Shown here in pieces: positions 33,297 through 54,112 of a stretch of 64,000 bases of DNA. Below the pieces are notes generated by a model. The model saw nothing but the letters and a program-made list of their open reading frames with translations, made no database searches and was not told the origin of the DNA. The translations under genes and the position numbers were made by a program. The stretch is from the NCBI RefSeq assembly GCF_019973615.1, contig NZ_AP024238.1:1302001-1366000 (forward strand). Direction: 5' to 3'. Every line of letters starts with the position of its first letter. The first letter of the stretch is position 1. The stretch comes from Rhodoferax lithotrophicus. GTDB taxonomy: Bacteria; Pseudomonadota; Gammaproteobacteria; Burkholderiales; Burkholderiaceae_C.

Positions 33297-34577
33297 TCAA
33301 AGGGAGTCACCGGGGTAGCCTCCCCAGAAGTTAGGCAAATCAGTGGTGGTGTCTTCAAACGATGGGGTGGTAAAAATGTCGGTTAATCCCTGTCTGGGGG
33401 GCGGTTGGCCTGAGGCTTGTTCAGCCAGGGCACATTCCCACAGGTACCAGTCAAAGTCCGTGTCTTCATCACTGACAAGCAGGCCATCAACCACCGGGCG
33501 GTTTATTTTGGGGACGAAGTTTGGCGGGCAGTCAGGGTGACGGTCTGCCAGTTCATATTTGGAGGAGGCTGGTGTTGATGTTGCTTGCTCGGCCATGAAT
33601 GCGTCTGACAGGTTGCGGCCAATGTTTTGGATGTGCAGGTTTTGCTCCTCTGGGGTAATCCCCATCCAGGCCATGCCACGGCGTAGTTGTTGCACCAGTT
33701 GAGGGACTTTTCCCATGGCTTTTTTCCGCTCACTCAAAATCGTCAGATCGGTGCTCACTTGAATCAGCTCAAAGGCCAAGTGTTTGAGTGTCAGGGTATC
33801 TGGATGTTGGAGCCCCTTTTGGGCAGCATGGGTCGCCAGAATCTCTGTCCATACATGGGTTAAAAATTCACACGTGGCATCTTGAACTGGCACCGTCATG
33901 AGTGTGCTCAGAATGGCTTTCCGATACTGTATGGTCAAGGCCTGCTGTTGTTCCTGTAGACAAGTCGAACAATTGACAAGAGGGGATTTTTTTCGACTCG
34001 CCAGCAAAAATTCGTCAAACGCTTGGTAGGCCTCCTCAAACACCGCTTGGCTGATCACGGAAGCGTCTTCAATGTTTAAAACCAGCTGCTTTAAGACTTG
34101 TTCGAGTGCGCCACAAGGTAGCTCCATCACACCTTTGCCCTGTGCGTACTCGCCAAGAGTAACGATCAGCTTGCGTGCTGGGTGGTTTTCCTGTTGAAAA
34201 CCAACGGGATCAGCCGAGGCCAGCTGGATCACTGGCCACTGTAGCCGTGCATACCAAATGCGGATCAAGGGGTGAATGTGGTTGTCATTCATCACCAGCA
34301 AAAACAACTCGGCAAAAGGCTCGAATGTGGAAGGATTTTCATCCTCCAAAGCGTGTGAGCGGGCCGATCTATGTTTGAATTTCAGCAGATGGTGTTTCAA
34401 CCGCTGAAACCAACCGGGTGCCTGCGTGCTGATGGCGCAGTTTTGGCTGGACAGGGTTACTTCGCCTCGACCCATTTGTGAAGATGTTTGCCCAAGCGCC
34501 TGGTGCGCAAACAGTCTGATGACTGGGTGGGGCTTGACCGCCTTCGGATTAAGCTCTGCCATTGAGTGAGTTTTCAT
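33297..34577 (-). CDS. DUF1631 family protein (short form)
   Basis: The product is 426 residues and soluble. The region around residues 105-145 (HPLIRIWYARLQWPVIQLASADPVGFQQENHPARKLI) and CEFLTHVWTEILATHAAQKG match the style of DUF1631 proteins of beta/gammaproteobacteria, which are usually longer (700 or more residues), so this is a reduced member. The C-terminus is acidic and Pro-rich (DEDTDFDWYLWECALAEQ). The role is unknown. It lies downstream of the two-component genes on the same strand after a 155-base gap. Confidence 0.65.
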   Translation of the reverse strand: MKTHSMAELNPKAVKPHPVIRLFAHQALGQTSSQMGRGEVTLSSQNCAISTQAPGWFQRLKHHLLKFKHRSARSHALEDENPSTFEPFAELFLLVMNDNHIHPLIRIWYARLQWPVIQLASADPVGFQQENHPARKLIVTLGEYAQGKGVMELPCGALEQVLKQLVLNIEDASVISQAVFEEAYQAFDEFLLASRKKSPLVNCSTCLQEQQQALTIQYRKAILSTLMTVPVQDATCEFLTHVWTEILATHAAQKGLQHPDTLTLKHLAFELIQVSTDLTILSERKKAMGKVPQLVQQLRRGMAWMGITPEEQNLHIQNIGRNLSDAFMAEQATSTPASSKYELADRHPDCPPNFVPKINRPVVDGLLVSDEDTDFDWYLWECALAEQASGQPPPRQGLTDIFTTPSFEDTTTDLPNFWGGYPGDSL

Positions 34578-49998: not shown

Positions 49999-50047
49999 AT
50001 AAAAAAATGGTATTGATTGAATGGATGTGAAGGGGCATGATCCCCCC

Positions 50048-51298
50048 ATGAACCCCTTTACCCCCTCCACCCTGGCCAGCTTGGCCCACACCCACGGCAC
50101 CCCTTTGTGGGTGTATGACACCGCCACCATCGAGCGACAAATCGCCAACCTGCGCCAGTTTGACGTGATTCGCTTTGCCCAAAAGGCCAACTCCAACACC
50201 CATATCCTCAAGCTGATGAAACGCTTGGGTGTGATGGTCGACTCGGTGTCACTGGGCGAGATTGAGCGTGCGCTGGCTGCAGGGTTCACCCCCGGCGTAC
50301 ACCAAGGCCATGCCGAGATCGTCTTCACCGCCGACCTGCTGGACCGCGCCACCCTGGCCCGCGTGGCCGAGCTGGGTGTGCCGGTGAACTGCGGCTCAAT
50401 CGACATGCTCGACCAGCTGGGCGCAGTCAGCCCCGGCCACCCGGTGTGGCTGCGCATCAACCCCGGCTTTGGCCACGGCCACAGCAACAAAACCAACACT
50501 GGTGGCGAACACAGTAAACACGGCATTTGGCACGCCGACCTGCCGCTGGCCTGCGAGCGCGTGCGTGCCAACGGCCTGACGCTGATGGGCATACATATGC
50601 ACATCGGCTCCGGCGTGGATTACGCCCATTTGCAGGAAGTGTGTGGGGCCATGGTCAAGCTGGTGGAAACCGTCCAAGCCCAGGGCATGGACTTGGCAGC
50701 CATCTCTGCCGGGGGCGGCTTGTCGATTCCCTACCAGGCCGATGCGCCAACGATTGACACGGCGCACTACTTCAGCCTGTGGGATGCGGCACGTACTCAA
50801 ATCGCCACTTTGCTGGGCCACCCGGTCACGCTGGAGATTGAGCCCGGCCGCTACCTAGTGGCCGAATCCGGCGTGCTGGTGGCCGAGGTGCGCGCCACCA
50901 AACAAATGGGCCGCAACCCGTTTGTGATGGTGGATGCCGGTTTCAGCGACCTGATGCGCCCGAGCATGTACGGCGCCTTCCACGGCATGGAAATCATCCA
51001 TGCGGACGGTACGCCCGCCACCGGCACACCGCAAGACACGGTGGTTGGCGGCCCGCTGTGTGAGTCTGGCGACGTATTCACCCAGGGCGAAGGCGGCGTG
51101 GTGCTGCAACGTGCCTTGCCCCCGGCGCAGGTCGGCGACCTGCTGGTGTTACACGACACCGGTGCTTACGGCGCGTCCATGTCCTCCAACTACAACACGC
51201 GCCCGCTGATCCCCGAGGTGCTGGTGGAAGATGGCCAGCCCCGGTTGATCCGTCGGCGGCAGACGGTGGCGGAGTTGCTGGCGCTGGAGGCGGTGTAG
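50048..51298 (+). CDS. lysA: Diaminopimelate decarboxylase
   Basis: Converts meso-diaminopimelate to lysine, with PLP. The product is 416 residues from the ATG at 50048 (MNPFTPSTLASLAH); an in-frame ATG at 50021 is less likely. The PLP lysine is in VIRFAQKANSN. Other motifs are VDSVSLGEIERAL, INPGFGHGHSNKTNTGGEHSKHGIW, GIHMHIGSGVDY, EIEPGRYLVAESGVL and VGGPLCESGDVF. It is of the E. coli-type LysA branch, consistent with the adjacent lysR. Confidence 0.96.
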   Translation: MNPFTPSTLASLAHTHGTPLWVYDTATIERQIANLRQFDVIRFAQKANSNTHILKLMKRLGVMVDSVSLGEIERALAAGFTPGVHQGHAEIVFTADLLDRATLARVAELGVPVNCGSIDMLDQLGAVSPGHPVWLRINPGFGHGHSNKTNTGGEHSKHGIWHADLPLACERVRANGLTLMGIHMHIGSGVDYAHLQEVCGAMVKLVETVQAQGMDLAAISAGGGLSIPYQADAPTIDTAHYFSLWDAARTQIATLLGHPVTLEIEPGRYLVAESGVLVAEVRATKQMGRNPFVMVDAGFSDLMRPSMYGAFHGMEIIHADGTPATGTPQDTVVGGPLCESGDVFTQGEGGVVLQRALPPAQVGDLLVLHDTGAYGASMSSNYNTRPLIPEVLVEDGQPRLIRRRQTVAELLALEAV

Positions 51299-51326
51299 GC
51301 GAGGTGGTTGGCGAGTTAAAGCTTGC

Positions 51327-52868
51327 ATGATGCACAAATCAAACAAAAGACCCGCGATTAGTGGTCTGTCCAACGAGCGTGCGCTTGATTTGATCGGGCA
51401 GCTCGTGGATCAAGCCCTTGACGAAGGAAATATTGATCTGATCAGTTACGCACTTTCTATTGCTGATGAGTTGGAGGCGCGCGGTCTTCAAGCATTGGAC
51501 TTAGCATTGCTTGATTACTTTCGAGCAAATGCGTGGGCATGTCGTGGTCAGCAACGGCTTGGCAATTCAGCCACTGTTTGGGATTTTGAACAACCGGAAG
51601 TAGGCCAGCAGGTGTTTCTATTACGGCGCGCAATGAACAGCCCTGGATTCGACGCGATGGATGCAATCCGTCGCTGCCAGATATTGACAAATCTCGCCAA
51701 TCAACTCAATACGCTAGGGCGTTTTGTCGAGGCTCGCGCATACTGGAGCACAGCGCTGGTAATAGATCCTAACTTCTGGATGGCTCGCGCCAACCGGGGG
51801 CGTGGACTGATGTATTACGCCAATGCGCTATACGATCCTGGACATGAAGCTGCGTTTGCTTTGTCCGCCTATAGTGACCTCATCAATGCGGTGGAACTTA
51901 TCGCCAAGTTTCCATATTTGGGTGATTTTCAACTTGCTTCCGTTTTTTCTAGGTCAGCAGAGCAGATATCGAACCACTATGACATCGAGGCAATTCGTCA
52001 TGAATACAAATCTGATGATTGGGACATGGGGTCGGTGCCAATTGAGCGCGCGTATCGCAGCTGGTGTCTCGATAACGTGCTGTTTCTCAATCCGTTGAAT
52101 GACCTTGAGGCTTCCTCAATTGCTGCGCGAGATGTCATGACCTTGCCAAACTTCATCACAGCGAATGGTGAGCCGCCAATCGTGGTTGGTATGTTCAACG
52201 AACTCAAGCAGGGCTTTGTTTCGGCGCGGTGGATGTTGTGGGAAGGCATGCAGGTAGATGAACCGCATTTGTCAGATCGTGAGGTTTTGATCTACAGCAC
52301 CTTTGACTATTCTGTGTATGGGCTGGCGATCGAAAAGGTGAAAGTTGCGTTTCGGATGGCCTATTCGACACTCGACAAAATTGCTTACTTCCTGAACCAC
52401 TACCTTGCGCTTGGCATTCCAGAGAAACGCGTTAGCTTTAGAACCATCTGGCGGGACAAAGATAACGGGCCGGTCAGGGACTACTTTGCAAAATCAGAAA
52501 ATTGGCCATTTCGTGGTTTGTTTTGGTTAAGTAAAGATTTGTTTGAAGAGGATATGCGGGATTCGACAGAGCCGGACTCCCGCGCTTTGGCCGATCTGCG
52601 GAATCATCTTGAACATAAATATGTGAAAGTTCATGACATGGTGATGCCCACTAGGTCAGCCACAGATCCCTTTTACGACACATTGGCTCATGTGATTTCC
52701 AGGTCTGATCTTGAGCGGCGGACGTTACGCTTAATTCAACTGGTTCGGTCTGCGCTGATCTACCTTTCGCTTGGGATGCACAGAGAGGAACAGGCGCGAG
52801 GGAAAGGTAAGGAGGGATTGATAGCGCCTATGTCACTCTATCCATTGAGTGACAAGTTGAGATACTGA
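51327..52868 (+). CDS. LA2681-type HEPN domain protein (putative RNase, possible defence gene)
   Basis: The product is 513 residues. The N-terminal half is helical with a TPR-like stretch (LTNLANQLNTLGRFVEARAYWSTALVIDPNFWMARANRGRGL). The C-terminal half has VKVAFRMAYSTLDKIAYFLN and the HEPN active-site motif LRNHLEHKYVKVHD (Arg425-x4-His430). This matches what I know as the LA2681-like HEPN family, whose members are predicted RNA-targeting effectors in conflict systems. Base and codon use is A/T-richer than lysA, and the gene lies between lysA and a pirin fragment, which suggests acquisition. No antitoxin or partner is visible. Confidence 0.8.
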   Translation: MMHKSNKRPAISGLSNERALDLIGQLVDQALDEGNIDLISYALSIADELEARGLQALDLALLDYFRANAWACRGQQRLGNSATVWDFEQPEVGQQVFLLRRAMNSPGFDAMDAIRRCQILTNLANQLNTLGRFVEARAYWSTALVIDPNFWMARANRGRGLMYYANALYDPGHEAAFALSAYSDLINAVELIAKFPYLGDFQLASVFSRSAEQISNHYDIEAIRHEYKSDDWDMGSVPIERAYRSWCLDNVLFLNPLNDLEASSIAARDVMTLPNFITANGEPPIVVGMFNELKQGFVSARWMLWEGMQVDEPHLSDREVLIYSTFDYSVYGLAIEKVKVAFRMAYSTLDKIAYFLNHYLALGIPEKRVSFRTIWRDKDNGPVRDYFAKSENWPFRGLFWLSKDLFEEDMRDSTEPDSRALADLRNHLEHKYVKVHDMVMPTRSATDPFYDTLAHVISRSDLERRTLRLIQLVRSALIYLSLGMHREEQARGKGKEGLIAPMSLYPLSDKLRY

Positions 52869-52978
52869 AGATACTGACTTACCTTGGTACATATGATATT
52901 TTGAGATAGTTGTGTATCCGGCATAAGCAAGCTTCAACCAAACGATTGACACCTGGGGGGCGGTTGACTTGCTCCCGA

Positions 52979-53122
52979 ATGACCACACCCACCAAATTCC
53001 CCATTACCAACCCCCGCAGCGTTGAAGCCCTCATCACCGGTCAGGCCAGCTCGGACGGGGTTGGGGGAAGTCTCACGCGGGTGTTGGCGCAAGACCTACA
53101 GAGGCTGGGTCAGCCGCTGTAA
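52979..53122 (+). pseudogene. 5' fragment of a pirin gene
   Basis: The 47-residue frame reads ITNPRSVEALITGQASSDG, VGGSLTRVLAQDLQR and then stops. Pirins begin with this pattern (V.SDGAG..L.RVL.Q.LQRRLDPF), after which about 230 residues are missing here. The fragment runs into the 3' end of the opposite aminotransferase gene. It is a clear remnant if the family match is right. Between 52869 and 52978 I see nothing else. Confidence 0.6.
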
Positions 53123-54030
53123 TTCACCGGGTCGCGGTAAGCCGCTTCGTCGTGTAGGGACCAGTAGGCATCGGACAAACGCCCGGTGATCGGGCCAGGG
53201 AAATGCGCCAGTGGCTGACCGTCAAGCTTGGCAATTGGCAGCACCCCGCCGCCGGTGGAACTCAGAAACACCTCGTCAGCCTGGCGAAATTCGGCCAGCG
53301 GAATCGGCGCAATTTCCAGCGGGATGCCGAGTCGCTCACACAGCTCAATCACGGTGCGCCGCGAAATGCCTTCCAGCACACCCCGGTTGGCGGTGTGCAC
53401 CACCCCGTTTTTGACCATGAACACGTTGAAGCCCGGCCCTTCCATGATGTTGCCCTGTGCATCCACCACACAACTGGTGTCCCGACCCTGGTCATAGGCA
53501 TCCAAGAGCGACTGCACCAGATCCATCCAGTGGTAGTTTTTCACCGTGGGATCGACCGACTCCGGCGCAATGCGGATGCGCTGGCTCACATGCAGGTCAA
53601 TACCCTGCAACTGCTTGTCACGCGAGGCAATCCACACATACGGCACGGCGTAGGCGTAAAAGCGGTTTTGCGCCATGCGTGGGTCACGTGCGCCCTTGGG
53701 CGGCACACCCCGGGTGCAGATCATGGCCACATACGCATCCTGCAGCCCACCGGCACGCACGCAGCCGTGCAAGATGTCGCGCAGCTCGGCGCGGCTGTAG
53801 GGCAGGGTCAGGCGCATCTTTTCCAGGCTGACAAAAAAACGATCCAGATGGTCATCCAGCCGGAAGAACGCGCCCTGCCAGGTGCTGACCACGTCATAGG
53901 TGACATCCGAACGGGTGAAGCCCCAGTCAAACAGGGAAATTTTGGCCTCTGACAGGGGTACGTAGGCCCCATCGGCAAAGGCGCAACCGCCTTCAAACTG
54001 GCCGGGGGCGGGGGTTGCGGGAATCGGCAT
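53110..54030 (-). CDS. Class IV PLP aminotransferase (D-alanine/branched-chain aminotransferase-like)
   Basis: The product is 306 residues from the ATG at 54030 with AAGGAG nine bases upstream. The PLP lysine is in DPTVKNYHWMDLVQSL, and the cofactor phosphate/strand motifs are NIMEGPGFNVFMVKNG and GVLEGISRRTVIELC. LFDWGFTRSDVTYDVVSTWQG is the common N-terminal signature. It could act on D-amino acids or branched-chain substrates; sequence alone does not decide. It is divergent from a TetR regulator over a long palindrome, so it is probably that regulator's target. Confidence 0.9.
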   Translation of the reverse strand: MPIPATPAPGQFEGGCAFADGAYVPLSEAKISLFDWGFTRSDVTYDVVSTWQGAFFRLDDHLDRFFVSLEKMRLTLPYSRAELRDILHGCVRAGGLQDAYVAMICTRGVPPKGARDPRMAQNRFYAYAVPYVWIASRDKQLQGIDLHVSQRIRIAPESVDPTVKNYHWMDLVQSLLDAYDQGRDTSCVVDAQGNIMEGPGFNVFMVKNGVVHTANRGVLEGISRRTVIELCERLGIPLEIAPIPLAEFRQADEVFLSSTGGGVLPIAKLDGQPLAHFPGPITGRLSDAYWSLHDEAAYRDPVNYSG

Positions 54031-54075
54031 GGGCAAGTCTCCTTCGTGGTGGGTTTGGCGGATTCTAGAAAAAAA

Positions 54076-54112
54076 TTGATCGATGTTCAATAATAAATTA
54101 AACACGGGTCAA
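54076..54112. promoter_or_regulatory. Long palindromic operator between the aminotransferase and TetR genes
   Basis: The left arm TTGATCGATGTTCAAT and the complement of the right arm, TTGACCCGTGTTTAAT, agree at 12 of 16 positions around a five-base spacer. It is centred between the two divergent starts (54030 and 54125), the classic place for a TetR-family operator. Confidence 0.6.

Follow-up and report, generated by a model that had tools for sequence, protein, structure and literature searches.

A stand-alone TPR-HEPN gene of the LA2681 family in Rhodoferax lithotrophicus, a probable horizontally acquired abortive-infection ribonuclease

What is a solitary gene for a predicted ribonuclease (RNase) doing between the housekeeping gene lysA and the remains of a pirin gene? 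The question is raised by a 64,000-nucleotide stretch of the Rhodoferax lithotrophicus genome (contig NZ_AP024238.1, positions 1,302,001 to 1,366,000; hereafter the window), in which a sequence-only reading had pointed out an orphan open reading frame (ORF) with a HEPN domain of the LA2681 type, and had proposed it to be a single-gene defence or toxin module. The analysis presented here supports that proposal, the case for defence being drawn from context and homology; the gene is probably a horizontally acquired, single-gene RNase of abortive infection (or growth arrest). The LA2681 family as a whole behaves, at the genomic level, as a stand-alone defence module, i.e., it is mobile, sporadic, without a partner, and found among anti-phage genes.

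The LA2681 protein and its active site

The gene and its parts are as follows.
51327..52868, + strand: stand-alone TPR-HEPN gene (LA2681-type HEPN); ORF of 513 amino acids; PF18733 E-value 2.5e-70; AlphaFold predicted local distance difference test (pLDDT) 92.1, predicted template modelling score (pTM) 0.92
51360..52004, + strand: TPR superhelix, putative sensor, residues ~12-226; weak Pfam TPR match and model alignment to solved TPR domains
52164..52787, + strand: HEPN domain, residues 280-487; PF18733; best solved matches of the domain model are HepT/HEPN toxins, Z 8.1-8.8
52599..52616, + strand: catalytic motif R425-N-H-L-E-H430 (RX4H), followed by K431-Y432 (RX4HXY, as in HepT)

The ORF begins with ATG and runs through its 513 codons without interruption, its coordinates, strand and length being as first read, and it is the single LA2681 gene in the complete 4.94-Mb genome. 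The match of the protein to HEPN_LA2681 (PF18733, residues 280-487) scored 236.4 bits against a cut-off of 27, which is far beyond chance. All three features by which its LA2681 membership was judged were found in it, namely a score above the Pfam cut-off, an intact R-X4-6-H motif, and fusion to TPR.

The RNHLEH motif, described earlier as intact, is indeed so, and both of its catalytic residues, R425 and H430, were invariant in 57/57 aligned relatives, as were D269, Q295, D317, E336, D350, K351, W375, N392 and R396. The Lys-Tyr pair that follows H430 completes the RX4HXY motif known from HepT, although residue 432 is itself not invariant, being Tyr in 39/57 relatives and Phe in 10/57. Residue 296 (bases 52212-52214), which adjoins the conserved K294 and Q295, is Glu in 56/57 aligned sequences, Gly in the window protein, and Leu in the two nearest relatives, L087 and L097; the change is thus specific to this clade. 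Damage to the active site through G296 was considered and ruled out, since the Glu is missing there in these nearest relatives also.

These residues bear on the possibility that the gene no longer functions and is decaying, a relic left by a former mobile element. The replacement of E296, the lack of a promoter match, and the orphan position near a broken pirin gene would fit such decay, against which stand the full-length ORF, the retention of every invariant residue, the high-confidence fold, and the fact that E296 is replaced in the nearest relatives as well, which marks the change as a trait of the clade. We therefore regard a relic as very improbable.

The structure of the protein was predicted as a monomer by AlphaFold2 with the 57 aligned sequences, and the C-terminal part, when modelled alone, still reached a pLDDT of 91. 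By sequence, TPR is represented by one weak unit (TPR_1, residues 119-150, E-value 1.2e-4), which falls under the Pfam cut-off; in the model, residues 12-226 form a superhelix of TPR type, as the earlier description of a TPR-like N-terminal part had suggested, and solved TPR superhelices match residues 12-222 with Z up to 13.4. The bacterial peptide receptors Rap and PlcR are also among these structural matches, lower in the list. For the HEPN-domain model, the top seven Z-scores (8.1-8.8) all belong to HEPN structures, comprising HepT of HepT/MntA, AMPylated HEPN toxins, and the HEPN of sacsin. The best matches are the HepT-type RNase toxins 5yep, 6m6w, 7bxo and 8xdj, which are covered over nearly the whole HepT chain, and Csm6 HEPN domains also match (6tug, Z 7.5). 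These HepT-type matches agree with the independent Pfam assignment of the domain. Foldseek with the full model retrieved TPR proteins only, and HEPN folds surfaced when the HEPN domain alone was used, with weak E-values (best 0.15). A sequence search of solved structures with the window protein returned generic TPR matches and chance hits only.

The two parts of the protein differ in conservation, the mean pairwise identity being 0.35 in the TPR part and 0.46 in the HEPN part, with a higher value of 0.55 in the TPR core (residues 116-170). Greater divergence of TPR around a conserved core is what would be expected of a sensor that diversifies on a fixed scaffold, a pattern that is suggestive only.

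Foreign origin and the slot after lysA

The composition and the distribution of the gene both point to foreign origin. Its GC content is 0.49 and its third-position GC content (GC3) 0.52, compared to means of 0.61 and 0.70 in the 44 other window ORFs; among the 45 long ORFs, none has a lower GC3, which bears out the A/T-richer patch of the sequence-only reading. The ORF with the second-lowest GC3 (33300-34577, - strand) matches only positions 330-616 of the 741 of DUF1631 (PF07793), and may be one part of a gene that is split or truncated. The pattern that had been named as contrary to a defence or toxin module, in which all relatives would have the gene here and its composition would be normal, was not observed, as homologues were found in 1/90 genomes of the genus, 6/301 sampled genomes of the family, 8/399 of the order and 4/398 of the phylum, and no other window gene departs as far in composition. 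In a tree of 57 relatives, bacterial classes are intermingled, with 19 changes of label against a minimum of 10, the labels being nevertheless clustered; in it, the window protein groups with copies from Roseateles, Ideonella, Rhodoferax and Acidithiobacillus. Overall, LA2681 homologues are spread over many bacterial phyla and one haloarchaeal plasmid.

The relatives were found on genome contigs by a search with an aligned subset, a search with the single window protein having found none. Two of them, L097:10001-11427 (Thauera, the closest homologue) and L136:10001-11525 (Rhodopila), appear to be split between frames, either by frameshift or by assembly error. On the Haloplanus plasmid (L069:9893-11517), TPR and HEPN are annotated as two overlapping genes, which may be a real two-gene form or a frameshift. 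A pattern scan of IMG/VR phage contigs confirmed no relative; in INPHARED, one unannotated, phage-labelled contig from human faeces (L076, MT836114.1:9132-10658) carries a homologue that is 36% identical.

The borders of the locus, and the first gene beyond it, are as follows.
50021..51298, + strand: lysA, diaminopimelate decarboxylase, left border of the slot; TIGR01048 E-value 1.6e-121; co-linear with relatives up to 51298-51309
52979..53122, + strand: pirin remnant, first 47 codons, right border of the slot; 75% DNA identity to the start of the intact pirin of genome G018 (L060:7810-8625; Pirin, Pirin_C)
53110..54105, - strand: class IV aminotransferase, first gene of a block absent from G018, outside the HEPN module; PF01063 E-value 3.4e-43

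The position between a housekeeping lysA and a broken pirin gene, as first described, was thereby confirmed; lysA is full and ends 28 bp before the HEPN gene starts, and the pirin gene, intact in G018, is reduced to its first 47 codons. In G018, the nearest relative, where LysA shares 97% identity with that of the window, homology extends to 51309, is followed by a VapBC pair (an antitoxin of the MazE/AbrB type with a PIN toxin, L060:7118-7779) and the intact pirin, and resumes from 56841. Genome G034 (L044) has the same antitoxin gene as G018 after lysA, without an intact PIN gene, and G049 has a flavodoxin-like gene there, named from a reading of its sequence. Since relatives hold these other genes in its place, the interval after lysA is a variable slot, in which toxin-antitoxin (TA) cargo is carried in relatives.

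The block from 53110 to ~56800 (~3.7 kb), absent from G018, contains the aminotransferase, a TetR regulator, an EamA-type transporter and a LysR-type regulator, and is a separate rearrangement that removed the rest of the pirin gene. Because the damage to pirin lies on the side away from the HEPN gene, where this block begins, insertion of the HEPN gene need not be its cause. A search for target-site duplications or att repeats around the HEPN gene found only short repeats; an imperfect 12-bp inverted pair (51315-51326 and 52927-52938) is 92% complementary and could be due to chance.

The close spacing to lysA raises the alternative that the protein is a host RNase of stress response or RNA processing, activated by a host signal through its TPR part and without a role against phage. 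The HEPN gene, 28 bp downstream of a housekeeping gene, may be co-transcribed with it, and RNA processing is also among the roles of HEPN proteins (PMC3710099). Nonetheless, the gene is missing from nearly all relatives, its composition is atypical, and its homologues lie in mobile and defence contexts, all of which make a purely host function improbable.

Genomic company of the homologues

The homologue survey comprised 89 loci with a HEPN ORF, the window included, which were made up of 70 relatives from GTDB genomes together with plasmid copies and whole-genome hits. The 880 neighbour proteins of these loci were clustered, and no family occurred in more than 7 loci; a fixed operon partner was accordingly rejected. 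Only 35/167 flanking genes were on the same strand and within 60 bp, and such scarcity of close co-directional genes indicates that the LA2681 gene is usually alone. Anti-phage genes abound in the surroundings, none of them as a constant partner, which supports defence; a survey of this kind had been proposed in the sequence-only reading. Directly adjacent (+1/-1) genes matched 274 PADLOC models on the left and 112 on the right, at an E-value of 1e-10, while for 69 control ORFs from other positions in the carrier genomes, 7 models were matched in at least 2 proteins; these are counts of models and not of distinct neighbours, and since PADLOC models overlap, they exaggerate the contrast. The models matched by neighbours include type I restriction-modification (RM), QatA, RmrA, capP, PifA, Dsr1 and PrrC, and the Pfam domains in neighbours include AbiEii, Fic, HsdR/HsdM/HsdS-type, KAP NTPase and integrase.

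On plasmids, the copy of Roseovarius is accompanied by CBASS with AbiE, that of Gemmobacter by NACHT, those of Agrobacterium and Vibrio by helicase/RM-type islands, and that of the archaeon Haloplanus by a MazF/MazE pair. Of the close relatives, L087 adjoins the primase of a TOTE conflict system, and L161 (Rhodoferax sp.) has as neighbours a NYN nuclease gene and one for a phage recombination directionality factor. Contexts without defence genes also exist; the Tistrella and Paenibacillus copies resemble the window copy in having metabolic or unassigned genes around them.

In Escherichia coli, LA2681 genes were found in at least 11/5426 genomes, a lower bound obtained by DNA search with a Klebsiella plasmid copy. 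They occur after yfgI, at the end of an integrative element that carries trb and resembles an integrative and conjugative element (ICE); within a Rac-like prophage, near a Hok-family gene; and directly adjoining the integrase of an AlpA/MobQ element that occupies ssrA. Single-gene phage defences are typically carried as cargo at such sites in prophages and integrative elements.

Toxin-antitoxin genes are also common in the immediate neighbourhoods of homologues, and it must be considered whether the window gene is itself the toxin of a TA pair or addiction module, i.e., a HEPN RNase that serves element maintenance and has an unlinked or unrecognised antitoxin, be it a protein, an RNA, or an MntA-like enzyme that AMPylates Y432. 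Its RX4HXY motif is identical to that of HepT, in which the tyrosine is AMPylated by MntA (PMC7641770), a VapBC pair occupies the same slot in G018, and LA2681 copies reside on plasmids and ICE-like elements. Against this, none of the 89 loci revealed a recurrent adjoining partner, tyrosine 432 is not invariant, the sole MNT-type gene of the genome is almost 2 Mb away with no HepT found in the genome, and no Rfam match occurs from 50900 to 53300, by which the idea of a nearby RNA antitoxin was rejected. A TPR domain of 220 residues is, moreover, unusual for a simple TA toxin. On balance, a TA toxin appears unlikely.

Several points weigh against an abortive-infection RNase as well. The window copy has no defence neighbour and is flanked by metabolic genes, and neither a promoter nor a terminator of the HEPN gene was recognised, so that its expression is presumed. 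Some close relatives (L097, L136) are frame-disrupted, and the E. coli and Klebsiella copies form a divergent branch, the Klebsiella copy having 24-29% protein identity to the window protein; their context therefore counts as family-level evidence. Fold matches of a helical bundle at Z 8-9 are suggestive only and not decisive. For LA2681 proteins, neither biochemical nor phage data came up in the literature searched, and PADLOC-DB 2.0.0 (2023) has no model that matches the window protein at an E-value of 10 or better, although absence from a defence database is not evidence against function.

Proposed mechanism and comparison with known systems

If the protein is indeed an abortive-infection RNase, it would be held inactive in the uninfected cell. 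On infection, the N-terminal TPR superhelix would bind a trigger, for which a phage protein or a host protein altered by infection is the likeliest candidate, and the binding would rearrange a HEPN dimer such that R425 and H430 cut RNA. The cleavage would halt translation and phage growth, leading to dormancy or death before phage release. The RNase activity, dimerisation, trigger binding by TPR, and anti-phage function in this scheme are what we infer rather than observe. More tentatively, LA2681 TPR-HEPN proteins could constitute a widespread stand-alone defence family that PADLOC-DB lacks, in which direct recognition of a phage protein by the TPR superhelix would turn on a HepT-like RNase that may be restrained through modification of the RX4HXY tyrosine. 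What is new here is the evidence for defence-like genomic behaviour across the family, and the natural E. coli copies make testing easier. If confirmed, the system would add a sensor-HEPN effector analogous to the Tha protein, with a predicted sensor fold, and would provide an entry for defence annotation tools.

Among known systems, the family itself comes first. HEPN_LA2681 was named in 2013, with its motif listed as intact and RNase activity predicted (Anantharaman et al. 2013, PMC3710099), and the table of that survey describes it as 'fused to TPR, and in operon with TPR' with an intact motif, and no more (PMC3710099). In the literature searched, the name was found only in this survey, in agreement with the earlier statement that the family is predicted, rather than well characterised, as an RNase. 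The window protein shares with it the same domain, the RX4H motif and the TPR fusion.

HepT of HepT/MntA (PMC7641770; PDB 5yep, 7bxo) is the nearest solved fold, with Z 8.8 and 3.7 A over 131 residues, and has the same RX4HXY motif. In contrast to HepT, the window protein has no adjacent MntA, has an extra TPR domain, and carries a tyrosine that is not invariant among relatives. The Csm6 RNases share the HEPN fold (6tug, Z 7.5), and RNase activity of the RX4-6H motif is a property of Csm6; however, Csm6 senses cyclic oligoadenylate by a CARF domain, which is absent from the window protein.

DS-11, a one-protein CBS-HEPN system, was shown to defend against phage (PMC13092281). Like it, the window protein unites HEPN and a putative sensor in one chain, the sensor being CBS in DS-11 and, by prediction, TPR in the window protein. 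Tha is a protein of 301 amino acids with a C-terminal HEPN, which is activated by phage minor tail proteins and acts as a non-specific RNase (PMC11087260). Together, Tha and DS-11 document that one-protein sensor-HEPN defences exist. Like the window protein, Tha-1 and Tha-2 of Staphylococcus aureus prophages are single proteins with a C-terminal RX4H HEPN (RNSIMH in Tha-1) and are associated with mobile DNA. The likeness is one of architecture alone, the N-terminus of the window protein being a TPR superhelix, and no antisense inhibitor gene was identified for the window gene in this comparison. With these differences in mind, Tha is the likely working model for the LA2681 protein of R. lithotrophicus.
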